From: Synechococcus sp. CBW1108
GTDB lineage: Bacteria > Cyanobacteriota > Cyanobacteriia > PCC-6307 > Cyanobiaceae
Direction: 5' to 3'
Length of the DNA stretch: 64,000 nt
Assembly (NCBI RefSeq): GCF_015840335.1
Contig: NZ_CP060395.1
Location: 2,331,277 to 2,395,276 of the forward strand
A program made the translations under genes and the position numbers. This document shows, piece by piece, positions 7,254 to 64,000 of this stretch. How positions within the stretch are numbered: the first letter of the stretch is position 1; each line of letters begins with the position of its first letter. The notes under the pieces are model-generated. The model was given only the letters and a program-made list of their open reading frames with translations. It had not been told where the DNA came from and made no database searches.

Positions 7254-8417
7254 CTATTTGCCCATGCCGAGCTGCTGGGCCTTCTGATACACCTTGCCCT
7301 CGGTCAGTAGGGAAGGGGCCACTACCACCTCCACCCCATGCATCTCCTTGAGGGTGCGGGCCCCCAGGGTGCCCATGGAGGTGCGGATGCAGCCCAGCAG
7401 GTTTTGGGTGCCGTCGTCGAGGCAGGCCGGGCCGCGCAGGATTGTCTCTATGCTGCCGGTGGTGCCCACCTTGATGCGGGTGCCGCGGGGGAGCAGGGGG
7501 CTTGGGGTTGCCATGCCCCAGTGAAAGCCTCGCCCGGGGGCTTCACTGGCGCGGGCGATGGGCGAACCGATCATCACGGAGTCGGCGCCGCAGGCAAGAC
7601 ACTTGCAGATGTCGCCACCGGTGACGATGCCTCCATCGGCCACGATCGGCACGTAACGGCCACTCTCGGCCAGGTATTCGTTGCGGGCGGCAGCGCAGTC
7701 GGCCACGGCGGTGGCCTGGGGGATGCCGATGCCCAGCACGCCCCGGCTGGTGCAGGCGGCTCCCGGGCCGATGCCGACCAACACGCCGGCGGCGCCAGCC
7801 CGCATCAGCTTGAGGGCCACGTCGTAGGTCACGCAGTTGCCGATCACCACCGGCACGCCGAAAGTGCGGCAGAGAACCTCCAGATCCAGGCTGGCCTGGC
7901 CTTCGGGGCCGAGGTGTTCGGTACTCACCACCGTGGCCTGGACAAAGAACAGGTCGGCGCCGGCCTCGGCGATCGCCGTGCCGAATTTCAGGGCGGCCAT
8001 CGGGGTGGCGCTGACAGCGGCGATGCCGCCACCCTTCTTGATCTCGGCGATCCGCTGGCGGATCAGGTCTTCGCGCACGGGCTGGCTGTAGAGATCCTGC
8101 ATCAACGGCACGAACTCCTGATTGCCCACCGCCGCAATCCGATCCAGCACGGGATTGGGATCGTCGTAGCGGCACTGCACCCCTTCCAGGTTCAGAACCC
8201 CCAGAGCGCCCTGCCGGCTGAGCTCCAGCGCCATCGCCACATCCACCACGCCATCCATGGCACTGGCGATGATCGGGATCTCCCGAGCGATGCCGCCTAG
8301 ACTCCAGCTGCTATCGGTTGTAGCGGGATCAACTGTGCGACTCCCCGGCACCAGGGCGATCTCGTCGATGCCGTAGGCCCGGCGAACTGTACGGGAGCGA
8401 CCGAGCTGAATATCCAC
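7254..8417 (-). CDS. guaB3: GuaB3 family IMP dehydrogenase-related protein
   Basis: This belongs to the cyanobacterial/actinobacterial GuaB3 group of the IMP dehydrogenase/GMP reductase superfamily, TIM-barrel enzymes that oxidise IMP to XMP with NAD+ in guanine nucleotide synthesis. Visible signatures are RAYGIDEIALVPG at the N-terminus, the active-site cysteine loop GIGPGAACTSR, the glycine-rich ADGGIVTGGDICK, and the flap end GTTGSIE. There is no CBS-domain insertion, which separates GuaB3 from classical GuaB. I chose GTG at 8417 because VDIQLGRSRTVRRAYG matches the usual start; a TTG at 8441 adds eight residues. The C-terminus KAQQLGMGK is typical of cyanobacterial members. Confidence 0.92.
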   Translation of the reverse strand: MDIQLGRSRTVRRAYGIDEIALVPGSRTVDPATTDSSWSLGGIAREIPIIASAMDGVVDVAMALELSRQGALGVLNLEGVQCRYDDPNPVLDRIAAVGNQEFVPLMQDLYSQPVREDLIRQRIAEIKKGGGIAAVSATPMAALKFGTAIAEAGADLFFVQATVVSTEHLGPEGQASLDLEVLCRTFGVPVVIGNCVTYDVALKLMRAGAAGVLVGIGPGAACTSRGVLGIGIPQATAVADCAAARNEYLAESGRYVPIVADGGIVTGGDICKCLACGADSVMIGSPIARASEAPGRGFHWGMATPSPLLPRGTRIKVGTTGSIETILRGPACLDDGTQNLLGCIRTSMGTLGARTLKEMHGVEVVVAPSLLTEGKVYQKAQQLGMGK

Positions 8418-8484
8418 CTGGAGATTACGGGTTCGGGCCAAGCTATCAACCGGCGCGCTACCAATTGCCTGTTTTTGTCAGGGT

Positions 8485-8991
8485 TCAGCCCTGGCCGCGA
8501 AAGGATTTCCAGCGCTTGCTGAGGCCGCCCAGCAGTTGCTCGCGCTCGCTGCTACGCAACAGTTTGGGTACGCCGTAGCGCACCATCCAGACCACACCGG
8601 CCAGTTCCAGCAGGCCGGGAACCAGCGGCAGGCTCTCGATGGCCCCCAGCAGGGCGCCATAGATCCTCAAGACCAGCAGCACGCCCACCAGGGCCGCCAG
8701 CAGGGTGACTGGCTTGCTCGCCTGGGCCCAGAAGCTCTGGAGTTGGCCCTGATTGAGCCATTCGCGCAGCTTCTGCAGCAGTAGCTCCCATTCGCCCCCT
8801 TCGCCGCTGTTGGGTCCATCGTCACCAGGCCCTGCCTGGGCAAGGAGCGGGGCGGCACTGGCTTCCACACTCAAGGTGGTGGCGACGCTCGGTTCTGGAG
8901 CTTGTTCGGGAACTTGTTCGGGGTCTGGGCCCCCATTCCCGTTTTCAGGGGTTGCGTTCACGGGGGCAGGGTTATGGGTGGATTCAGCCAT
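8485..8991 (-). CDS. CAAD-domain membrane protein
   Basis: A 168-residue protein. The first roughly 75 residues are acidic and Pro/Glu-rich without fold signals. The rest resembles the CAAD domain: an amphipathic helix (WELLLQKLREWLN), two hydrophobic helices (about 95-115 and 118-140, with the SLPLVPGLLELAGV turn between them) and a basic amphipathic end (SEREQLLGGLSKRWKS). CAAD was first seen fused to cyanobacterial aminoacyl-tRNA synthetases that it anchors to thylakoids, and it is related to CURT1 thylakoid-curvature proteins. A thylakoid location is therefore likely. It lies 67 bases upstream of guaB3 on the same strand. Confidence 0.75.
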   Translation of the reverse strand: MAESTHNPAPVNATPENGNGGPDPEQVPEQAPEPSVATTLSVEASAAPLLAQAGPGDDGPNSGEGGEWELLLQKLREWLNQGQLQSFWAQASKPVTLLAALVGVLLVLRIYGALLGAIESLPLVPGLLELAGVVWMVRYGVPKLLRSSEREQLLGGLSKRWKSFRGQG

Positions 8992-10300: not shown

Positions 10301-12946
10301 ATGCGGTCATCCATGGCGGACCCCAGCGGACCCGGTGCTGACTCACCGGGGGAGTCCGGCGGTAGCGGCAATTCGCGGATCATCCAGACCGATCTGCGCA
10401 ATGAAATGTCGCGCTCCTATTTGGAGTATGCAATGAGTGTGATCGTGGGCCGGGCCCTGCCCGATGCCCGCGATGGTCTCAAGCCGGTGCACCGGCGCAT
10501 TCTCTACGCGATGTACGAGCTGGGCCTAACCAGCGACCGCCCTTACCGCAAGTGCGCCAGGGTGGTGGGTGAAGTGCTCGGCAAATACCACCCCCACGGC
10601 GACACGGCGGTGTACGACGCCCTGGTGCGGATGGCCCAGGACTTCAACATGCGCATGCCCCTGGTTAACGGGCACGGCAACTTCGGCTCGGTGGATGGTG
10701 ATCCCCCGGCCGCCATGCGCTACACCGAATCACGGCTGCAGGCGCTCACCACCGATAGCTTGCTCGATGACATCGAAGCTGAAACTGTCGACTTTGCCGA
10801 CAACTTCGACGGCTCCCAACAGGAGCCCACCGTGCTGCCGGCCCGGATCCCCCAGCTGCTGCTCAATGGCTCCACGGGCATTGCCGTGGGGATGGCGACC
10901 AACATCCCCCCCCACAACCTCACCGAGCTGATCGACGGAACCCTGGCCCTGATTGCCAACCCCGAGCTCGATGATCTGCAGTTGATGGCGATCATCCCGG
11001 GCCCCGACTTCCCAACCGGGGGACAGATCCTGGGCCGCCGTGGCATCCGCGAGACCTACACCACCGGCCGCGGCTCGGTGACGATGCGGGGTGTGGCTTC
11101 GGTGGAAACCCTGGAAGTCAAGGGCCGCCCCGATCGGGATGCGGTAATCATCACCGAGCTGCCGTTCCAAACCAACAAGGCATCCTTGATCGAGCGCATC
11201 GCCGAGCTGGTCAACGACAAGAAGCTCGAGGGGATTGCCGACATTCGCGACGAATCCGACCGCGACGGCATGCGGATCGTGATTGAGCTGCGCCGTGACG
11301 CCTACCCCCAGGTGGTGCTCAACAACCTGTTCAAACTCACGCCGCTACAAAACAACTTTAGCGCCTACATGTTGGCGCTGGTGAAGTCAGAGCCGGTGCT
11401 GCTCACCCTGCGCAAGATGTTGCAGGTGTTTATCGACTTCCGTGTCGAGACGATCGAGCGGCGCACCCGCTATTTGTTGCGCAAGGCGGAGGAACGCGAC
11501 CACATCCTGCTGGGCCTGCTGCTGGCCCTCGACCAGCTCGATCCGATCATCGCCCTGATCCGGGCAGCCTCCGATGCGGCCACGGCCCGGCAGCAGCTCC
11601 AGGAGCGCCACGGCCTCACCGAGATCCAAGCCGACGCCATTCTGCAGATGCAGCTGCGGCGGCTGACGGCCCTGGAGGCCGACAAGATCCGCCTCGAGCA
11701 TGAGGATCTGGTAACCAAGATTGCCGACTACAAGGACATCCTCGGCCGACGTGAACGGGTGCTCACAATCATCACCGAGGAGCTCGCTGCACTGCGCAGC
11801 CGGTATGACTCCCCTCGCCGCACCGAGATCCTCGACCTCGAAGGCGGCCTCGAAGACATCGATCTGATCGCCAACGAACGATCGGTGGTGCTGCTCACGG
11901 AGAACGGCTACCTCAAGCGGATGCCGGTGAGCGAATTTGAAGCCACCAGCCGCGGCACCCGCGGCAAGGCTGGCACCAAGACCCAGGGTGAAGAGGCCGT
12001 GCGGCTATTTATCAGCTGCAACGACCACGACAACCTGCTGCTGTTTTCTGATCGGGGCGTGGTGTACACCGTGCCCGCCTACCGGGTGCCGATCTGCAGC
12101 CGGGCCGCCAAGGGCACGCCGATCGTGCAGATGCTGCCGATCCCCCGCGAGGAGCAGATCACCTCGCTGCTGGCGGTGAGTGAATTTGCTGAAGACGCCG
12201 TGCTGGTGATGCTCACCAGTGGCGGCACGATCAAGCGAACCCGCCTCTCGGCCTTCGCCAACATTCGCTCCAATGGGTTGATTGCCATCGACCTGGTGGA
12301 GAGCGATGCTCTCACCTGGGTGCGGCTGGCCCTGCCCGGCGACAGCATCCTGATCGGATCGCGCAACGGCATGACGATCCACTTCCGGCTCACCGATGAG
12401 GAGCTGCGGCCCCTGGGCCGCACTGCCCGCGGCGTGCGTGCCATGAACCTGCGCCCCGGCGACCAGCTGGTGAGCATGGATGTGCTGCCCGCCGAGCTGG
12501 CCGACCAGGTGGCCAGCGCCGGCGTAGGGGACGATACCCCTGACGACGAGGCTGAAGAGGTGGCCCCCAGCGAGGGTCCCTGGGTGCTAGTGGCTGCCGC
12601 CAGCGGCCTGGGCAAGAGGGTGCCGGTTGATCAATTCCGGCTGCAGAAGCGCGCTGGCATGGGCCTGCGGGCGATCAAGTTTCGCAATAAGGGCGACGTG
12701 CTGGTGGGGCTGAAGGTGCTCGGCGCCGGCGAGGAGCTGCTGCTGGTGAGCGAGAAGGGGGTGATCGTGCGCACTCAGGCCGATGCCATTCCCCAGCAGT
12801 CCCGCGCCGCCACCGGCGTGCGCCTGCAGAAGCTGGATGCCGGCGACCGCCTCACGGAAGTGGTGCTGGTGCCGCCGGCGCCGGAGGAGGAAGAGGCCGC
12901 CCCCACCGAGCCTGGGGAAGCCGTCGTCACCAACACTGAAGAGTGA
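10301..12946 (+). CDS. gyrA: DNA gyrase subunit A
   Basis: An 881-residue type IIA topoisomerase subunit that breaks and rejoins DNA, partnering GyrB. The N-terminal block [20 protein letters not shown], the quinolone-region [11 protein letters not shown] (97-107) and the catalytic Tyr141 in AMRYTE are all present, followed by the coiled coil and a six-bladed C-terminal repeat region ending at about 860. At the place where the GyrA box (QRRGG-[KR]-G) is expected the sequence is TSRGTRG (549-555), so the DNA-wrapping motif is poorly kept. That raises the alternative of a ParC-like role, but overall likeness favours GyrA. ATG at 10301 or 10313; the first roughly 25 residues are Gly/Ser/Pro-rich. 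crtL follows after a small inserted toxin-antitoxin unit. Confidence 0.92.
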
Positions 12947-54480: not shown

Positions 54481-55449
54481 TTGCCGCAGACAGTGCAAAA
54501 CCAGCTGCTGCGCAACAGCCTGAAGCTCTTTGTAGCCGCGCTCCTCACAGCCGCCATTGCTGTCTGGACCGATCGCGTTCAATTTGCCTGGTACCCACTG
54601 TTTGCAGTGGTGATGGTTGTTGATGATAACGACGACCACACGCTGCAGGCCGCCAGCGGCCGCATCCTGGGCACCTTGGCGGGAGGTCTGATTACCTTCC
54701 TGGTGCACACCATCCTCGGCGGTTGGATCGGGGTGCTGGTGTCGATGCTGGTGATGATTCCTGTACTGCAGCTGTTGGGCTGGCAGAGCGCCCTCAGCAC
54801 GGCCTCACTGGTTGCTGTGATGTTTCTGATGCTTCCAGGCCATACGGCGCTGGGCTGGGACTACGTGTTCAACCGCGCTCTCGACACGGTGGTGGGCTGC
54901 ATCGTGGCAATCCTGGTGGGCCTGCTGTTCTGGCCGCACAACAGCAGCAGCGAACTCAATACCGCCGATGGCCGCCTGCGTCGCTCTCTGCAAAACCAGC
55001 TGCAGGCCTACAGCGACTGGCTGGCCCAACGGCGATCCAGGCCCGAGCCGCTGAATACTGCCCCGCTCACCAACGACCTGCAACGGATGGAACAACTGGT
55101 GGCTCAGGAACGCAGCGGCCCTCGCCATCAGGCCCTCAAACGCAGCGGCTGGGAGCAACGGCTGCGGCTGTGGCAGCTCGCCCACTTTCACTGGATCGCC
55201 TGGGAGCGGCTGATGGCCGGGTTGCCGGAGCAGCAGACCCTGCAGGCCGATCTGCTGCATCGCACGGTGGTGGACCTGCAGCGGCAGCTCAGCGGAGAGC
55301 CCGGACCGACCCCAGGGCGTGAGCCCCAGCGTTGGCAGCAGCTGGCCCAGCAGCTGCAGCTCCCGCTACTGCCGCTGCTGGCCCTCGCGGAGGAGGGGCG
55401 CCCGCTGCCTGCCTGCCTGGGCGGGCTGAACCGAATGGCTCCGCTGTGA
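54481..55449 (+). CDS. Half-size FUSC-type membrane protein, first pair, A
   Basis: A 322-residue protein of the FUSC/aromatic-acid-exporter-like superfamily. The first roughly 155 residues hold about six short spans (KLFVAALLTAAIAVW, YPLFAVVMVV, GTLAGGLITFLVHTIL, VLVSMLVMIPVLQLLG, ALSTASLVAVMFLML, VVGCIVAILVGLLFWP). The conserved VVDDNDDHTLQAASGRILGT is the FUSC strand-turn. The second half is a Gln/Leu/Arg-rich cytoplasmic helical region. Typical FUSC exporters are about 650-720 residues with two such membrane modules; here one module is encoded per gene. TTG start 54481; GTGA overlap with gene B. Confidence 0.8.
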   Translation: MPQTVQNQLLRNSLKLFVAALLTAAIAVWTDRVQFAWYPLFAVVMVVDDNDDHTLQAASGRILGTLAGGLITFLVHTILGGWIGVLVSMLVMIPVLQLLGWQSALSTASLVAVMFLMLPGHTALGWDYVFNRALDTVVGCIVAILVGLLFWPHNSSSELNTADGRLRRSLQNQLQAYSDWLAQRRSRPEPLNTAPLTNDLQRMEQLVAQERSGPRHQALKRSGWEQRLRLWQLAHFHWIAWERLMAGLPEQQTLQADLLHRTVVDLQRQLSGEPGPTPGREPQRWQQLAQQLQLPLLPLLALAEEGRPLPACLGGLNRMAPL

Positions 55450-56513
55450 TCAACCGCAACGGCCTGCGCACCGCCTTCACCGCCGGGCTCGGCAACGCTT
55501 TCGCCAGCTTGTCAGGGGTGGCGGACAGCCAATACGTTTCCCTGGCGGTGTTGGCGGTGTCCACCGGCACCTATGGCGGCGCGCTGGCCCTGGGCAGCCA
55601 GCGCCTGCTGGGCACGGCGCTCGGGTCGGTCCTGCTGCTGATCGGCTACGAGGGTCTACAGGGAATGCCGATGCCCCTGGCGATTGCCATCACCCTGGGC
55701 GCCTTGCGCCTGCTGGGCGGCCTGCTGAAGCTGCAGGTTGGCTACAAGGTGGGCGGCATCGTCATCGTGATGGGCTGGCTCGTGCACGAGGGCGGCCTGG
55801 CCGAATGGATTCCGCTTCGCTTTTTCTGGACCTGTTTCGGCGTGCTGATCGCGTTGCTGGGCCTGCGGCTTTTCTGGCCGGCCCGCGGACTCGACAGCAG
55901 CCTGGGCCAGGTTGCCGGGCTGCTCGTGCAGCTGCAGAGCTGCTTCCGCGACCTGGCGGCGAGAGTGGATCCCGCCAGGGCAGGCCTGGTGGCGGGTCAG
56001 GCGGCCGATCCGGTGGGGATCGGTCGCTACCGGGCCCTGCGCAACCAGCTCGTTGCCATCCGGCGGCAACGGCCAGCGCTGCTGCAAGAGCTGGGCACCC
56101 TGCCGGAGCGCCATCCAGCGACGCTGCTGATGGCGAACTTTGAGGCCACCGCCTCTCGCCTGATCACCCTGGTGGGCGGCCTTGTGCGCGAGTCCCCCAC
56201 CAGCCAAGATCCCCAGCTGGTGGTGCAGTTGCACCGGGCCGAAGCGGAGTTGCTGCAGGCCATGGCTGGCCATCTGGGCCAATGGGAAGGGCAGATCCGT
56301 GGGCGCCGTGGGTTGCCCAAACCACCCGAAACCGAGCTGCAGCTGCCGCCCAGCTGGCAGCAGTTGGGCCAGGAGCTCAACAACCCCACCGCCAACTCGG
56401 CTTCCCTGGAGCGGCTGGAAAGGATTGCCAGCCGGCTGATGCTCTGCCGCCAGGCCGAGCAGGCGATTCGCGATGGCGAAGCAAACTGGGCTGCAATCCT
56501 GGGCAAGGCCTGA
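55446..56513 (+). CDS. Half-size FUSC-type membrane protein, first pair, B
   Basis: A 355-residue partner of the preceding gene, begun at GTG 55446 inside its stop. The membrane module (about 1-140) has spans YVSLAVLAVSTGTYG, LGTALGSVLLLIGY, LAIAITLGALRLLGG, GYKVGGIVIVMGWLVH and FFWTCFGVLIALLGLRLFWP. A long helical cytoplasmic region follows. Together with A it equals one full-length two-module FUSC exporter split into two polypeptides, which probably assemble as a heterodimer. Substrate is unknown; characterised relatives export aromatic acids or small hydrophobic compounds. Confidence 0.8.
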   Translation: MINRNGLRTAFTAGLGNAFASLSGVADSQYVSLAVLAVSTGTYGGALALGSQRLLGTALGSVLLLIGYEGLQGMPMPLAIAITLGALRLLGGLLKLQVGYKVGGIVIVMGWLVHEGGLAEWIPLRFFWTCFGVLIALLGLRLFWPARGLDSSLGQVAGLLVQLQSCFRDLAARVDPARAGLVAGQAADPVGIGRYRALRNQLVAIRRQRPALLQELGTLPERHPATLLMANFEATASRLITLVGGLVRESPTSQDPQLVVQLHRAEAELLQAMAGHLGQWEGQIRGRRGLPKPPETELQLPPSWQQLGQELNNPTANSASLERLERIASRLMLCRQAEQAIRDGEANWAAILGKA

Positions 56514-56672
56514 ACCCCGTCAATTGCCGTCCTCAGCCAGCTGCTGGGTAACCACAAGCAGCTGGACACGCCGAGCCAACCCGCTGCCGCCCCGGAAGCT
56601 GAACACCCCCTAGGGCCGCAAAGCCGCTGTGCAAATCAGACTGCGCCCACCAAGGCGCTGATCTGCATCACC

Positions 56673-58489
56673 GTGGCAATGCGCAACCGCGTTCTGGCCC
56701 TGTTGTGGTTGGGGCTGATCCCGGCCCGGCTGGCCCCGGCTGCGCTGTCCGCCCCACGGCCCGCATCGCTTTCTAGCCAGCCGCGGCAAGCCCAGTCCAC
56801 CGAGCTGATCGAGCGCAGCTGGCAGCGGCTGGATGCGGAGCTGCGGGCCCTGGATCAGTTGCTGCCAGGCGAACCCGAGCCCCCGGTGGGCAACGTGCTC
56901 AGCACCCCGGAGCTGCCCGCCAACCTGATCCGGGCCAACCAACCCGCCAGCGGCCCGATCCAACCTGCCGACGCGGTGGCCGGTCCACCCCTGGATCTGC
57001 CTACCCCCCAGCAACTCCAGGCCGGCGGCGTGGCCAGCCTCAGCCTGGAGAAGGCCTTGGCCATCGCCTTTGCCAACAGTGCCAGCCTCCAGGCCCAGCG
57101 CGATCAGGTGGCCGCCGCCCTGGCCAGCGTCCAGGCAGCGATGGGCACCTACTGGCCCACCATCAGCGCCTTTGCCGCCGGCGGCTACGAGGGCAACCGC
57201 AGCACCACCACCGCGAAAAAGCCCAACGACAATTTGGGTTTTGGCCCCATGTTTTCGCCGAACGGGGTCCTCACCCCCGGACCTGGCGGCACAGCCATCC
57301 CCACGGCCGGCCCCTTCTATGTGCCCAACGGCGGTTCCGTGGCGGCCACCTCCGGGGAATGGGGCGTTGAGGGGGACCTGCAACTCAACTACGCCCTGCT
57401 CGACTTCGCCCGCACGCCCACGGTGAAAGCCGCCCGCGCCAGCCTGGAGCAGCAGCGCAACACCTATGCCAACCAGCTGCGCTCCCTGCAGCTGCAGGTG
57501 AGTGAGGCCTACTACCAGCTCCAGCAGGACGAGCAGCTGGTGCGCGTCTACGACGCCAACCTGCGCAACGATCTGGTGATCCTGCAGGACAGCCTCGACC
57601 TCAAGCAGGCGGGCCTGGTGCCCAGGCTCGATGTGCTGCGGCGCCGGGCCATTCAGGCAGCCGACGAAGAGACCCTTATCCAGGCCCTGGCCGACCGGGC
57701 GGTGGCGCGCCGCAAACTGGCGGTGCTGCTCAACCTGCCCGCCAGCGTGACCCCTAACGCCAGTGACCCGATCGTGGTGCAGCCCCGCTGGCCCCTCGAT
57801 CTGGAGGCCAGCCTGCTGGCGGCCTACCGGGGCAATCCCGAACTGGAGCGATCCTGGCCACCCGCACGGCCCTGGCCCAGCAGAGCCAGGCCACCGCGGC
57901 CGGACTGCTGCCAAAGCTCTCCCTGTTTGCCAGCGGCGGTGGCAGCAGCTCCCAAACCAGCCTCGGCGACTTCACGCTTGCCGGGGGCGGCTGCTGCGGT
58001 TCCACCGCCCTGCCCTTGAGCACCACCAACGGCTGGGACTGGTCGGTGGGTTTGACCTTTACCTGGCTGCTGTTTGATGCCGGCACCACCGCTGGCCAGG
58101 CCCGTGCCCTGACCAAACAGGCGGCGGCCACAGCCCAGCAATATGCCGCCAGTCGCAACGACATCCGCCTGCGGATCGAGCAAGCGTTCTTCAACCACGA
58201 GGCCAGCCTGGCCAAGCTGAGTTCAGCGCGCCGAGGAGTGGCGGCTGCCCTGGAGGCCTTCCGTGACGTGCGTCTGCGCTACCTAACCGGCCTAGACAGC
58301 GAGCTCAATCTCTCCAACACGCAGGACCGTCTGATCAACAGCCTGGTGCGGCGGATCAACGCCACGGTCAACGTGAATATCACTTACGCGAAGTTGCTGA
58401 AGGAACTGCTGCCGATGCCGCGCGATCCCAATCTGCCGATCCAGACCCAGCTTCAGCTCAGCAGCAGTGGCGCCGCCACCCAACCTTGA
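56673..58489 (+). pseudogene. TolC-family outer-membrane efflux protein, frameshifted
   Basis: An outer-membrane channel protein that would give FUSC pumps an exit to the outside. It has a signal peptide (ALLWLGLIPARLAPAALSA), a Pro-rich linker and the repeated OEP pattern LEKALAIAFANSASLQAQRDQ, LNYALLDFARTPTVKAARASL, QVSEAYYQLQQDEQLVRV. The first frame reads to about codon 391 (NPELE at 57835-57849) and then goes out of phase and stops at 58019. The true sequence resumes in another frame as ILATRTALAQQSQ and continues through SLFASGGGSSS and FTWLLFDAGTTAGQARAL to 58489. One lost G (GAGGCGATC becoming GAGCGATC) at about 57847 explains it; repaired length is about 605 residues. Confidence 0.85.
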
Positions 58490-58503
58490 ACGGGCGACAC
58501 CCC

Positions 58504-59529
58504 ATGGCTGCCGCCCTGCCCTCCCTGAGCCCTATTTGGCGCAACAGTCTGCGTATCTGGCTGGCCAGCACCCTGACGATCGGGATCCTGTTTTGGTCAG
58601 GGCGCAACCACCTGCTGGGGCTGGCTCTTGTGATGGCTGTGTTGTTCGTGAATGAGAACGACCTCACCCCCGCCCGCAGCATTGGCCAGCTGGTGGCCGG
58701 CGCCTTGATCGGCATCCTCACGGCCATCGTGCTGCACGAGATATCCACCAGCTGGGTGGTGCTGGGCCTGGCCATCCTGATCACCGGTGTGCTGGTGCGC
58801 AGCATCGGGCTGCTCAAAGGCCTGAGTACGGGGTATCTGAGCTGCTGGGCCGTGGAACTGATGCACCGCGGCAACCAGTTCAACTGGCCGATGATTTTTG
58901 ACCTGGCCTTCGCGGCGGTGGTGGGCATCTTGATGGCGCAGATCGCCACCTGGGCCCTCTGGCCACGCCGCCCCCTTCAACAGCTCCCTGCCCTGGAAGC
59001 CCGGATCGCCAGCCAGCTCGAGGCCCAGATCCTGGCAATGCAGCAGTGGCTAGATAGCGGCGGTGAGCCCCCAGCTGCCCTGCGCTCCCAGGATCTGCTG
59101 CCCAGCATTCAGCTGTTGCAACAGCTTCGCGACCAAAACCAGGGCCGTCCCATGCCCGCCCACACCCAACACCGGCTGTCGCGCTGGGCCCAGGCCGGCA
59201 GCATCTGGCGACAGGTGTTACGCCAGTAGCTGCTGCTGGAGCCCCTGCTACGGCAGCTGGACACCCCCCTGCCGGCAGGCAGCCCCCAGCCCCTGCTCCG
59301 CAGCGCGCTCGCCAGCCTCGCCCGGAACTTGCAAACCCAACCCACCGCCGCTCCAGCGCCAATCCTCTCGAGCCCAGCTCAAGATTGGCTGGAAGAAGCG
59401 GGGCGTCTGGTCGCCCCCCAGCCCCTGCTGCTGGCCATCGGCCAGCAGTGCCATGTGTTGAAACAGCTGCTCCAGAGCCGGGCACTGCTCAGCGCGGGCC
59501 TGGCCCAGCTCTCGGCCTCGAAGGGATGA
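58504..59529 (+). pseudogene. Half-size FUSC-type membrane protein, second pair, A, with in-frame TAG
   Basis: A homologue of the first-pair A gene: spans SLRIWLASTLTIGILFW, LLGLALVMAVLFV, LVAGALIGILTAIVLHE, WVVLGLAILITGVLV and LAFAAVVGILMAQIATWALWP, with the FUSC turn VNENDLTPARSIGQ. A TAG at 59227-59229 (codon 242, after CGC CAG) ends the first part. The same frame then stays open for 99 further sense codons with matching helical, Gln/Leu/Ala-rich sequence (LLLEPLLRQLDTPLPAG ... AQLSASKG) to a TGA that overlaps the next gene's ATG. A CAG-to-TAG change would explain it. The 241-residue N-terminal product keeps the membrane module. Confidence 0.85.
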
Positions 59530-60584
59530 CCAGCCCAGCCCTGCGGGACAACCTGCGCCTCGCTGCCACTGTGACGGTGGTGAACGGCTTCGCCAATCTC
59601 TCCGGCCTGCCCTTTGCGCTCTACGCCTCCCTGGCGGTGCTGAGCGTCACCGTGGGCAACTACGGCAACACCCTCGAACTCGGCCGTCAGCGCCTGGTTG
59701 GCACCGCCATTGGCGCCATGGTGGTGTTCTTCGGCTACCGGGCCTGGGGGCAGCTGCCGCTGGTGGTGGGCCTGCCACTGGCCCTGCTGCTGGCCCGGCT
59801 GATCGCCGGCTCGTTGCGGCTCACCGTGGGTTATGGGGTCTGCTGCTTCGTGGTGGTGATGGGCTGGCTCACCCATGAGCAGCAGCTCGACAGCTGGATC
59901 CCCCTGCGCCTGTTATGGACCGCGTTCGGAATCCTGATGGCCCTCCTCAGCCTGCGTCTGTTCTGGCCGTCCAGAGCCCGGATCCAGCAGCGCGAGGGGC
60001 TGCTGCAGCTGCTGGTGGATCTGGGTCATACCCTGGTGCAGGTGGTGCAGCACCCGCCAACAGCGATTCAATCCCAGGCGCAACGTCGCCGCCAGCTGGG
60101 GCAACAGATCCGCAGCCTGCGCATCAATCTGCAGGGCCTGCGCGTCCAACGCCAGAGCGCCCTGCTGGAACTGGGCACCCTTGCGAGTGCGCATCCAGTG
60201 GCACGGATGTGGGCGCTGCTGGACCAGGCCAGCGAAGCCCTGATCCTGGATCTCGATGAACTGCGGCGTCTACCGAATGCCGACTGGCAGGGCTGGGGTC
60301 TACAGGTCGACTACGACGCAGGCCTGGCTTTTGTGCAGGGTGTGGTCGAGCGTTTGCTGAGCTGGCGACAGCAACTGAGCGATTCAACCCGGTTGCAGCC
60401 ACCGCCGAGCCAACCGCGTTCGACGCTGTCCTTGGAGGCCCTGCAGTCGCCCGAATCCAAGGCTGCCTACGGGCGGCTAAGCCCCGAGCAACTGCAACGG
60501 GTGGCCGCTCAGTTGATGGTGCTCAATCGCATGGATCACACCATGGAGAGCACCGAACGCCAATGGCGAGAGCTTGTGAGTTGA
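59526..60584 (+). CDS. Half-size FUSC-type membrane protein, second pair, B
   Basis: A 352-residue homologue of the first-pair B gene. The membrane module (about 1-140) includes FALYASLAVLSVTVGNYGN, LVGTAIGAMVVFFGYR, LPLALLLARLIAGSLRL, GYGVCCFVVVMGWLTHE and LRLLWTAFGILMALLSLRLFWP, with the same GYxVxxxVxVMGWL core as its paralogue. A helical cytoplasmic half follows. ATG 59526 overlaps the stop of the A gene (ATGA), preserving the A-B arrangement of the first pair. The reading frame is intact. An IS21 element begins roughly 15-20 bases after its stop. Confidence 0.8.
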   Translation: MTSPALRDNLRLAATVTVVNGFANLSGLPFALYASLAVLSVTVGNYGNTLELGRQRLVGTAIGAMVVFFGYRAWGQLPLVVGLPLALLLARLIAGSLRLTVGYGVCCFVVVMGWLTHEQQLDSWIPLRLLWTAFGILMALLSLRLFWPSRARIQQREGLLQLLVDLGHTLVQVVQHPPTAIQSQAQRRRQLGQQIRSLRINLQGLRVQRQSALLELGTLASAHPVARMWALLDQASEALILDLDELRRLPNADWQGWGLQVDYDAGLAFVQGVVERLLSWRQQLSDSTRLQPPPSQPRSTLSLEALQSPESKAAYGRLSPEQLQRVAAQLMVLNRMDHTMESTERQWRELVS

Positions 60585-60604
60585 GGGTTCAGGCGTTCGT
60601 GTCC

Positions 60605-60626
60605 GCCGACAATGAAGTTGGCCGGT
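60605..60626 (+). repeat. IS21 end repeat L1
   Basis: Outer left copy of the element's 22-base repeat: GCCGACAA, four variable bases, GTTGGCCGGT. It is the counterpart of R1 at 63282-63303. Confidence 0.75.
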
Positions 60627-60627
60627 C

Positions 60628-60649
60628 GGCGACAAGCTCGTTGGCCGGT
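60628..60649 (+). repeat. IS21 end repeat L2
   Basis: Inner left copy: GGCGACAA, GCTC, GTTGGCCGGT, one base after L1. Probably a transposase binding site together with L1. Confidence 0.75.
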
Positions 60650-60677
60650 GGGGTGAGTGCTGGAGACCCTGGTGCCG

Positions 60678-62294
60678 ATGCGCAGGGACCAGGTGATGCC
60701 GGCACCACTGACAAGCCACCAACGCAATCTGTTCATGACGAAACGACGAGGCGGCAGCAGCCAGGAGGCTGCTGCCGCGGCGGCGGGCATCTCAGTGCGC
60801 AGTGCTCGCCGGATTGAATGCAATCAGCTGCAGCCGCGGGCGAACCAGCCCCGTGGCCGCACCCGCCCCGATCCGCTGGTAGGGGTATGGGAGGAGGAGC
60901 TGGTGCCGTTGCTGCAGCGCTCACCCGCGCTGACGCCGATCACGCTCCTGGAGCATCTGCAGCAGCAGAAACCTGATGTGGACTGGATTCCGCTACAGCG
61001 CACCCTGCAGCGCCGGGTGCGGGAGTGGAAGGCACTGCACGGCCCGGCGCCGGAGGTGATCTTCCCTTTGAGCTATGAGCCTGGCGAAATTGCCTTCTGT
61101 GACTTCACCCAGCTCAAGGGGGTGGAGGTGACGATCGCCGGCCAGGTGTTCCCCCATCTGCTGTTCCACTACCGCCTGGCCTGGAGCGGCTGGAGCTATG
61201 CGCAGGTGGTCCAGGGCGGCGAGAGTTTTGCAGCCCTCTCCGAGGGTCTGCAGAACGCTCTGGCTGCCTGCGGCGGGGTGCCAGGTGAACTGCGCACCGA
61301 CCGGTTATCAGCAGCGTGCCGTAACCGCAACGGCAGTTTCAGCTCCGACATCACCCGCCGTTATCACGCCCTCTGCAGCCACTACAGCCTGGCCTACAGC
61401 CGCAACAACCTGGGGGTGGCGCATGAGAACGGCCGTGTGGAGAGTCCCCATGGCCATCTCAAGCGGCGGATCGAGCAGGCGTTGCTGCTGCGCGGCAGCA
61501 GTGATTTCGAGACGCTGGCTCAATACCAGGCTTTTCTGGCTGCAGTGCTCGAGCAATACAACCGACCGCGTCTGGTCCGGCTGGAGCAAGAGAAATCGGC
61601 GCTGCGGCCGCTGCCGCGGTTTCGTTTTGCCGACTACGACATTGAACAGCTCACGGTGCGGCGCACCAGCACGATCGAGGTACGCAGAGTCGTGTATTCG
61701 GTGCCGCCGCGGCTGATCGACCAGCGGCTGACGGTGCGGATCTTCCACGACCGGCTGCAGCTGCTTCTGGGCCGGCAGATCGCCTGCGAACTGGAGCGGC
61801 GCCACGGCGGTGTCGAGCGTCATGGGCGGGCGTGGAGCATCGATCTGGAGCACCTGATCGATGCGCTCAGGCGAAAACCCCGGGCATTGCTGCACTGCAG
61901 TTACCAGCGGGAGCTGTTCCCCGATGAGCGCTGGTGGCAGCTGTGGCAGCAGCTGCGCAATGGCGGTGACCGTGACGCCGCCGCCCGATTGATGGTCGAG
62001 GCGCTGTATGTGGGCTGCCGCCTGGCGGGCTACGAGCCAGTGCTGGGTTGGCTCGAGAAGGCCCATCAACGGCAAGGGCTGTCGCTGGCGGCGCTGCAGC
62101 AACGCTTCCGGCTGCCGCCCCATCGCCCCCACCCACCGCAACGCATTCCCCAACACAGCCTGCAGAGCTATGACGACCTCCTTGCCCTCCATCCCGCGGC
62201 CCCAGGCGGCGGAAGCCGCCCTGCCGATCCTGCTGCGACAGCTGCGGTTGGCATGGATCCGCTGCCACTGGCAGAGCATCGCCTCGCAGGCTGA
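60678..62294 (+). CDS. istA: IS21-family transposase IstA
   Basis: A roughly 538-residue DDE transposase. An N-terminal helix-turn-helix (SSQEAAAAAAGISVRSARRIE) precedes the catalytic core: first Asp in AFCDFTQLKG, second Asp in ELRTDRLSAA, Glu in NLGVAHENGRVESPHG. A C-terminal beta-rich domain and the LQSYDDLL end follow. The start is not certain: ATG 60678 includes the LTSHQRNLFM lead-in to the HTH, while ATG 60735 would cut close to it. istB begins inside its last 125 bases, in a different frame. The frame is intact, so the element may be active. Confidence 0.9.
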   Translation: MRRDQVMPAPLTSHQRNLFMTKRRGGSSQEAAAAAAGISVRSARRIECNQLQPRANQPRGRTRPDPLVGVWEEELVPLLQRSPALTPITLLEHLQQQKPDVDWIPLQRTLQRRVREWKALHGPAPEVIFPLSYEPGEIAFCDFTQLKGVEVTIAGQVFPHLLFHYRLAWSGWSYAQVVQGGESFAALSEGLQNALAACGGVPGELRTDRLSAACRNRNGSFSSDITRRYHALCSHYSLAYSRNNLGVAHENGRVESPHGHLKRRIEQALLLRGSSDFETLAQYQAFLAAVLEQYNRPRLVRLEQEKSALRPLPRFRFADYDIEQLTVRRTSTIEVRRVVYSVPPRLIDQRLTVRIFHDRLQLLLGRQIACELERRHGGVERHGRAWSIDLEHLIDALRRKPRALLHCSYQRELFPDERWWQLWQQLRNGGDRDAAARLMVEALYVGCRLAGYEPVLGWLEKAHQRQGLSLAALQQRFRLPPHRPHPPQRIPQHSLQSYDDLLALHPAAPGGGSRPADPAATAAVGMDPLPLAEHRLAG

Positions 62295-62961
62295 GGGCGA
62301 GGGCTGGAGCCCCAGCCAGTTTCTCTATGCCCTCTGTGAGCAGGAGGTGGAGCAGCGCCAGCAGGCCCGCCAGCAACGGTTGCTGCGATCAGCCCAGCTG
62401 CCCTGGAGCAAGGTGCTGGCGGATTACGACCATGGCGGCCGAATCGAGGCGCACCGATGGCAGGAGCTGGAGGCTCTGAGCCGCCAGAGCGATTGGCTGC
62501 AGCGGAGTGAAAACGTGCTCTTGTTCGGCCCCAGCGGTGTGGGCAAAACCCATCTGGCCATCGGCATCGCCCTGGCGCAGATCGGCCTGGATCAGGCCTG
62601 CCGCTTCTATCCCGCCACGAGCCTGGTGCAGGAGCTGCAGAAGGCCCGCGCCGAATACAACCTGCCGGCAGCGCTGGAGCGGCTGGATCGCTACCCGCTG
62701 CTGCTGATCGATGACATTGGCTATGTGCGGCGGGATGAACAGGAGAGCAGCGTGCTGTTTGAGCTGATCTGCCACCGCTACGAGCGCCGATCGCTGCTGA
62801 TCACCGCCAATCAGCCGTTCACCGCCTGGGATGAGATCTTCCCCAGCAGCTCAATGACCGTGGCGGCGGTGGACCGGCTGGTGCACCACTGCCACATCGT
62901 CGAGATCAGCGGCGACAGCCACCGCCGCGCCCAAGCAAGCCGGCGCAGCGGCAGCAAATAG
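62170..62961 (+). CDS. istB: IS21-family helper ATPase IstB
   Basis: A 263-residue AAA+ ATPase related to DnaC/DnaA, which selects target DNA and stimulates IstA. Walker A is FGPSGVGKTHLAIG, Walker B LLLIDDIGYVRRDEQES, sensor-like LLITANQPFTAW and the final VDRLVHHCHIVEI. ATG 62170 lies within istA and overlaps it by 125 bases, more than the usual few. The last 20 residues are Arg/Ser-rich. The protein looks complete. Confidence 0.92.
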   Translation: MTTSLPSIPRPQAAEAALPILLRQLRLAWIRCHWQSIASQAEGEGWSPSQFLYALCEQEVEQRQQARQQRLLRSAQLPWSKVLADYDHGGRIEAHRWQELEALSRQSDWLQRSENVLLFGPSGVGKTHLAIGIALAQIGLDQACRFYPATSLVQELQKARAEYNLPAALERLDRYPLLLIDDIGYVRRDEQESSVLFELICHRYERRSLLITANQPFTAWDEIFPSSSMTVAAVDRLVHHCHIVEISGDSHRRAQASRRSGSK

Positions 62962-63129
62962 CCACAGCAGCCGTAGAGAAGCGGAGAACAGCCCGGGAGA
63001 TTGTCGTCCGGCGACAACCTGGTGCCGATGGTGCCAGACCCCGGCGGGGAGCTCCGCGCTGCCGGCGGACTGTGCGGTCCGCCGGCTCGTGCGCTCCAGG
63101 GCAAGGTTCAGCGGAGGTCTCGGCGCCTA

Positions 63130-63270: not shown

Positions 63271-63533
63271 CAGTTCCCCTCACCGGCCAACTTGATTGAC
63301 GCCAATCGGCCAAGGGGGTTGACGCGGGACACGTTCGGCCGCGACGACCACCAGCGCTCAACGCGATATAGCAGCACCACCACTAACACCACCAGCCAGA
63401 ACCACAGCTCCGGTGGGTTGGCATTGAACAGGATCAGCAGCAGCACCACCTCGCTCACCAGCCAGGGGAACTCTTGCCGCAGCAGGGGATTGCGGATCCG
63501 GGGAAGGGACGGCGACTTCACAGGGGCGCTCAT
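63270..63533 (-). pseudogene. Small two-span membrane protein, 3' end replaced by IS21
   Basis: An 87-codon frame starting at ATG 63533, which overlaps the stop of the secretion gene (ATGA). After a polar N-terminus come hydrophobic stretches LVSEVVLLLILF and LWFWLVVLVVVLLYRVERWW, typical of a small membrane protein. From about 63308 on, the frame runs through the IS right end and stops at 63270, so the last dozen residues (NPLGRLASIKLAGEGN region) are IS-derived. The natural gene was probably longer. Function unknown; its place next to an NHLM-type secretion gene suggests a bacteriocin-export operon. Confidence 0.6.
63282..63303 (-). repeat. IS21 end repeat R1
   Basis: Outer right copy: read on the minus strand GGCGTCAA, TCAA, GTTGGCCGGT, matching L1 in the last 10 bases and most of the first 12. 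It marks the approximate right end of the element. Confidence 0.75.
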
Positions 63534-64000
63534 GGAACGGTGTTGGGCTGACGCAGGGAAGGCAGGTTCCAGCGCAGATCGATCCAAGGGGTGCGGAAGC
63601 CGCCGGTGAGGGAGCGCAGGCCCGGAATCACGTAGCTGATCGGCGAGCGCCACTCCACGTAGGCATGGGTCGAGACCGTGAGTCCGTCGCGGATCGGGAA
63701 CACGCCACTCCCACCCGAGAGGGTCCAGCGGTAGCCGTCCACGCTGGAGGGATCCCGTTCCAGCTCGATTTCGCTGCGCATCACCGGATCGTTCTGCGTC
63801 AGCGCCTGGGCCAGCTGCGCGTTGCCGGTGGTGGTGGAGATGTCGTCCTGGGTTGCGGGCAGGGTGAGCACCTGCGTCACCTTGCCCACGATGCCGCCGA
63901 AGCGGCCGCGCTGGTTCCACTGCGGCACCACCTCCACCGGCAGCCCCAGGGGCAGGCGGCGGGCATCGGCGGGCGCAAAGTAGGACACCACCCGCAGCGG
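63530..64000 (-). CDS. NHLM bacteriocin system secretion protein (HlyD-like), partial
   Basis: The C-terminal 156 residues of a periplasmic adaptor; the rest lies beyond the right edge and the frame is open at 64000. The sequence YFAPADARRLPLGLPVEVVP, GGIVGKVTQVLTLPAT, DPSSVDGYRWTLSGG and RSPISYVIPGLRSLTG resembles the NHLM/NHLP bacteriocin secretion protein family, HlyD-type adaptors that work with peptidase-containing ABC exporters of nitrile-hydratase-leader peptides. Such adaptors link the inner membrane to an outer-membrane channel. The assignment is by recognition of the C-terminal pattern only. Confidence 0.7.
   Translation of the reverse strand, partial: PLRVVSYFAPADARRLPLGLPVEVVPQWNQRGRFGGIVGKVTQVLTLPATQDDISTTTGNAQLAQALTQNDPVMRSEIELERDPSSVDGYRWTLSGGSGVFPIRDGLTVSTHAYVEWRSPISYVIPGLRSLTGGFRTPWIDLRWNLPSLRQPNTVP

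Follow-up and report, generated by a model that had tools for sequence, protein, structure and literature searches.

A probable loss-of-function frameshift in the TolC-like gene of a FUSC/HlyD/OEP export cluster in Synechococcus sp. CBW1108

The TolC-like outer-membrane factor gene (OEP, PF02321) of a seven-gene FUSC/HlyD/OEP export cluster in Synechococcus sp. CBW1108 is split by a frame break, and we consider this very probably to be a genuine and recent loss-of-function mutation in a cluster that this strain is in the process of losing. Four of the seven cluster genes are damaged in this genome, namely those encoding a channel-like protein, the OEP, the FUSC-like protein B1 and the HlyD-type adaptor, while the FUSC-like genes A1, A2 and B2 are open. 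The exporter has most likely undergone multi-hit decay, of a kind that is ordinary in an IS-rich genome. The DNA analysed, referred to below as the window, is a stretch of 64,000 nucleotides (G000:C1:2331277-2395276) from a genome assembled as one contig of 3,226,220 bases and 98.5% complete; coordinates given without a prefix are window positions unless stated otherwise.

Results

The TolC-like gene as a whole occupies 56673-58489 on the plus strand, as judged from the DNA, the ORF list and Pfam. Its upstream frame (56673..58019) is family-like up to the residues NPELE, the last codon of which ends at 57848, and thereafter encodes unrelated residues before a stop at 58017 (ORF list and translation). 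The family sequence resumes at 57848, one frame over, as AILATRTALAQQSQ and continues to a stop at 58487-58489. The break itself (57834..57860, plus strand) was placed from the DNA, from codon-position GC and by comparison with relatives; the phase of codon-position GC switches between the 300-base intervals 57650-57949 and 57800-58099. Each part by itself matches the Pfam OEP profile: the N-terminal part (56673..57848, plus strand), which holds the first OEP repeat, at 2e-28, and the C-terminal part (57848..58489, plus strand), which holds the second repeat in the other frame, at 4.6e-23. The initial annotation had described a break after NPELE with resumption one frame over, and the DNA, the ORF list and codon-position GC all agree with it; its further claim of a single-base frameshift whose repair gives a 605-residue protein is borne out by the 392 codons of the N-terminal part (56673-57848) and the 213 codons of the C-terminal part (57848-58486), which add up to 605.

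In relatives the two OEP repeats lie in one polypeptide, whereas here they lie in different frames. The junction PELE|A(I/V)LA is found in one frame in the loci of all 21 named relatives, and in a wider table of related loci 26 of 28 read through it in one frame with no stop, a count that includes the Cyanobium usitatum locus (L037) which supplied the OEP query. The two exceptions are L068, where the contig ends before the junction, and L070, which has a stop with no change of frame. The search was designed around the OEP, which is therefore present in every one of the 28 loci; relatives were sampled as one genome per species. Loci L057, L059-L063 and L065 were omitted from the table as, judged by length, they come from the same contigs as named loci already included; L069 (G024), also omitted, is not a duplicate, and in it both OEP halves abut in one frame. 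Given that the frame is split at 57848 here and continuous in relatives, the OEP gene is, in the sequence as given, broken. Its orthologues in close relatives are unbroken in 26 of 28 loci, as is to be expected where a gene has become a pseudogene, and it is best marked as such in the annotation. The initial annotation had held that close relatives with an intact frame would refute the frameshift; relatives are indeed intact, but this reveals an intact ancestor, not a wrong sequence in this strain. As a separate observation, the OEP relative in L070 (genome G033, 765-2555) carries one in-frame TAG.

The arrangement of the cluster is clearest in C. usitatum, where the order is A1-A2 (FUSC-like), the channel-like gene, OEP, B1-B2 (FUSC-like) and, on the opposite strand, the HlyD-type adaptor. 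A1 (54481..55449, plus strand; FUSC_2 2.2e-9 and FUSC 3.2e-9 in Pfam) is 92% identical to its C. usitatum counterpart over 322/322 residues, and B2 (59526..60584, plus strand; FUSC_2 8.9e-9) is 95% identical over 352/352 residues. A2 (55449..56513, plus strand; FUSC_2 2e-7) is free of stops, and the start of its listed ORF at 55332 looks too far upstream. All three exceed the Pfam FUSC_2 cut-off, and a FUSC membrane component is thus encoded here. The assignment of B1 to FUSC is weaker, as neither of its parts matches a Pfam family and the matches of an intact relative fall below the cut-off; A1 is 24-31% identical to the B1 proteins of relatives. The initial annotation had assigned the broken gene to a second exporter set, which would have been left without its outer-membrane partner. 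Loss of the partner stands, but the OEP gene lies between two FUSC-like pairs and is not specific to the second.

Across relatives, the OEP and the adaptor are the steadiest parts of the cluster and the other genes vary. The adaptor was found in 24 of the 28 loci, and the contigs of the other four measure 5-8 kb. B1 was found in 17, of which 14 are unbroken; the gene in L043 is frameshifted in its own right, that in L047 extends past the contig end, and L064 retains a fragment. The frame change in L043 (11788-12509; Synechococcus sp. 8F6) is independent of the stop described below, and B1 therefore seems to decay outside this strain too. Elsewhere, L042 (6657-9105; Synechococcus sp. CS-1331) has an A1/A2 mosaic, in which a diverged FUSC-like pair (~39%) is followed by the usual 3' end of A2 (81%). 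Our literature searches found no account of this FUSC/HlyD/OEP cluster.

The channel-like gene, the product of which is about 285 residues long in the relatives that have it, survives here as a 3' remnant (56487..56639, plus strand), the rest being missing. The remnant matches residues 229-281 of the C. usitatum protein at 55% identity with one stop, and the match overlaps the end of A2. The distance from A2 to the OEP gene is 159 bases here, against approximately 870-930 in the measured relatives with the channel-like gene, and a short gap is also possible in relatives that lack this gene. Loss of the channel-like gene is by itself not unusual, because it was found in 15 of the 28 loci (once with a stop) and is absent from the other 13, some of them short contigs; the remnant shows that the loss happened here. 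The channel-like protein matched nothing in Pfam or NCBIfam; along part of its sequence it shares 29% identity with an Ion_trans_2 protein encoded in this genome.

B1 (58486..59529, plus strand) contains an in-frame TAG at 59227-59229, evident from the ORF list and from comparison with relatives; in all ten relatives displayed, this position is a sense codon. The C-terminal part of the HlyD-type adaptor occupies 63530..64000 on the minus strand (TIGR03794, 183.5 bits in G000), and the gene runs past the end of the window to G000:C1:2396095, so that the lesions in its start codon and anchor lie outside the window. The first codon is altered, although the adaptor begins with ATG in all 19 relatives in which the first residue aligns, and 17 residues are deleted over the hydrophobic anchor, a stretch that is kept in all 24 relatives with an adaptor. 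The best 19-residue hydropathy, which in C. usitatum is 2.0 and is located at the stretch deleted in this strain, is 1.0 here, and this hydropathy suggests that the missing residues formed the membrane anchor. An HlyD-type adaptor is present, with its presumed anchor deleted and its start changed. About 5 kb past the adaptor, at G000:C1:2401012-2403509, an OprB-like porin gene is broken into three pieces, each in a different frame, and about 1.4 kb separates two of the pieces.

An IS21-type element (60600..63000, plus strand; IstB_IS21 3.2e-57 and Mu-transpos_C_2 4.4e-9 in Pfam) has B2 on one side and the adaptor on the other; in C. usitatum these two genes are about 200 bases apart. The istA gene of the element spans 60657-62294 and istB lies inside the listed ORF 62008-62961; a quick scripted search turned up no clear terminal repeat, and the ends given are approximate. 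At least 20 copies, of 96-100% identity, are present in the genome among the 40 of 207 candidates that were scored, and their identity is a sign of a fairly recent burst.

A second FUSC/HlyD/OEP locus lies at L072 5467-12273, equivalent to G000:C1 ~2075466-2082272 (~2.075-2.082 Mb). It holds a FUSC-like gene, which scored 29.4 bits (above the cut-off) in one search and 25.5 (just below) in another, an HlyD-type adaptor and a split OEP gene, the parts of which (L072 ~8034-8632 and ~11434-12273) lie on either side of an insertion element; judged by eye, this element has inverted ends, and an IS1595-type transposase gene also lies inside it. The relative of this OEP gene in G001 is open (492 residues, 82%), and matches occur in five of the 15 other genomes of the genus, one of them partial. 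In all, this genome has three OEP genes, of which only that at 927945-929180 (562 residues open) is unbroken, and four FUSC_2 matches at E up to 0.001, every one within these two loci.

As a measure of how frequently genes are broken in this genome, 572 ORFs of a relative (G004) were compared with 800 kb of it, giving 133 orthologue-like matches (44,464 residues), 126 without a break and seven flagged. Stops that fall within the first 60 residues or 12%, or within the last 15 residues, are ignored by the survey, as are in-frame deletions and matches below 60% identity. Its coverage amounts to a single region, because 124 of the 133 matches come from the 400 kb surrounding the window and nine from a second stretch. 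Among the seven, the present OEP gene and an MscS-like gene were taken, by eye, as real breaks; a glutaredoxin-like frame, in which the stop precedes the matched domain, is a doubtful case, and the four frames with no Pfam match, which by eye look overlong or antisense, are probably not genes. The MscS-like gene (G000:C1:2233372-2233388) shows a frame change and an unmatched stretch relative to G004, and its relative has a Pfam match. A looser pass flagged 14 of 121 comparisons, and the OprB-like gene was flagged in that pass only. Frame breaks and internal stops, the lesions that the survey can see, affect two of six cluster genes (OEP and B1); the chance of this is between 0.003, for a background of 2 per 130, and 0.03, for 6 per 132. 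By itself this is a moderate argument against chance damage.

Codon changes private to this strain were counted as synonymous/nonsynonymous. The damaged genes gave 22/6 (OEP), 1/0 (B1) and 5/2 (adaptor), the open genes 8/2 (A1), 17/0 (A2) and 6/2 (B2), and two neighbouring genes 8/0 (ABC) and 2/0 (LytR). Pooled, OEP, B1 and the adaptor have 8 nonsynonymous and 28 synonymous changes against 4 and 41 in A1, A2, B2 and the two neighbours (P 0.12, no significant nonsynonymous excess in the broken genes; not every gene was compared over the same number of taxa). Genes that have long escaped selection are expected to accumulate more nonsynonymous than synonymous changes. Because private nonsynonymous changes are few, the losses, if real, look recent.

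Discussion

When a frame is interrupted by one base, the possibility of an error in the sequence of an intact gene has to be considered, whether from sequencing or from assembly, and the initial annotation had suggested this, to be recognized from read support for an extra G. One base alone is at issue, and it could be wrong even inside an otherwise decayed cluster; moreover, there is no significant relaxation of selection in the OEP gene, and the small number of nonsynonymous changes, which fits recent loss, would for the point lesions fit errors also. On the other hand, the break does not fall in a homopolymer: two CCC runs are the longest to be found within 15 bases of it. The genome is complete in one contig, and few other breaks came to light in the stretch surveyed. 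The stronger argument comes from the neighbouring genes, which are damaged too: the loss of most of the channel-like gene and the 17-residue deletion in the adaptor are not base-calling errors. The frame break is present in the sequence as given, and error, which we regard as unlikely, accounts poorly for the breaks, deletion and shortening seen in the neighbouring genes. The initial annotation was right about the frameshift and too narrow in treating it as a single lesion, since it overlooked the other lesions of the cluster and the one unbroken OEP gene elsewhere in the genome.

Two further explanations would leave the split gene with a function. That the halves are collinear and each well conserved would suit programmed ribosomal frameshifting, by which both could be fused into one protein; a scan for heptamers alone found no slippery X_XXY_YYZ in the needed phase in 57750-58010, nearly all of the stretch in which the two open frames overlap, and 26 of 28 relatives encode the protein with no shift at all, so that we give this reading very little credence. 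Alternatively, the halves, each of which is recognizable as OEP by itself, might act as two separate proteins with one repeat apiece. The earliest ATG, GTG or TTG in the downstream frame is at 58016 (ORF list), however, and a protein restarted there would miss the first 56 of 213 residues and begin within the repeat, which makes this the least probable explanation of all.

We therefore favour genuine loss of the outer-membrane factor as one step in the decay of the whole exporter. The sequences themselves show the lesions, and the unbroken state in relatives: only a remnant is left of the channel-like gene, the OEP gene is frameshifted, B1 is interrupted by a stop, the adaptor is changed at its start and deprived of its most hydrophobic stretch, and an IS21-type element separates B2 from the adaptor. 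The consequences for function are our interpretation. OEP repeats made apart would not be able to form a channel, an adaptor with no anchor would not be expected to be placed in the periplasm, and a path of adaptor and OEP across the envelope is probably not assembled from this cluster. With a split OEP and an anchorless adaptor, the export system would be dead.

Pseudogenes created by frameshift, nonsense mutation, deletion and IS insertion are usual in IS-rich bacterial genomes. The lesions described here, a frameshift, a stop and deletions, together with the insertion element in the OEP gene of the second locus, do not differ from these in kind. It is possible, although we incline slightly against it, that this lineage has lost FUSC-type outer-membrane export entirely. 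Each of the two loci would then have been deprived of its outer-membrane factor independently, by point and deletion decay in the window and by insertion sequences in the second locus, and one unbroken OEP gene would now serve all export. If true, this would point to a change, of habitat or of culture, after which such an exporter was no longer needed or was penalized. More generally, the present case illustrates that neighbouring genes allow an apparent single-base frameshift to be assessed even where reads are lacking. It also indicates that a FUSC/OEP exporter is dispensable in at least one picocyanobacterial strain, which bears on the question of which exporters such cells need.

In its relatives' full-length form, with two OEP repeats, the outer-membrane factor resembles the TolC family (TIGR01844, 8.7e-32, 110.6 bits), yet it scores below the curated cut-off of 225 bits, and in this genome it is frameshifted between the repeats. 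The cluster as a whole resembles AaeAB/FUSC-type efflux systems in bringing together FUSC-like genes, an HlyD-type adaptor and an OEP, which we presume from their neighbourhood to work jointly; it differs in that the FUSC-like genes come as two pairs, that some relatives add a channel-like gene, and that the cluster is broken here. AaeAB has been listed with an outer-membrane partner marked by a question mark (PMC8277102). By analogy with AaeAB, the exporter may perhaps have handled small aromatic or other amphipathic compounds.

The adaptor also resembles that of NHLP bacteriocin export (TIGR03794), a family described in PMC2887384, the C. usitatum protein scoring 193.4 bits against a curated cut-off of 156.2. 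A role as part of an NHLP peptide exporter nevertheless has little support: TIGR03794 exceeds its cut-off in 13 of 16 genomes of the genus, whereas the peptidase-ABC family TIGR03796 does so in one of 16 (this genome, elsewhere) and TIGR03797 in none of 16. Because these two are rare above their cut-offs while the adaptor family is common, we did not assign the cluster to peptide export. Weaker ABC relatives are present in all 16 genomes, and an unlinked ABC exporter may be the adaptor's partner. A separate NHLP-type peptide export cassette is found in this genome at G000:C1:673287-678251, with TIGR03794 and TIGR03796 above their cut-offs and a TIGR03797-like match below.
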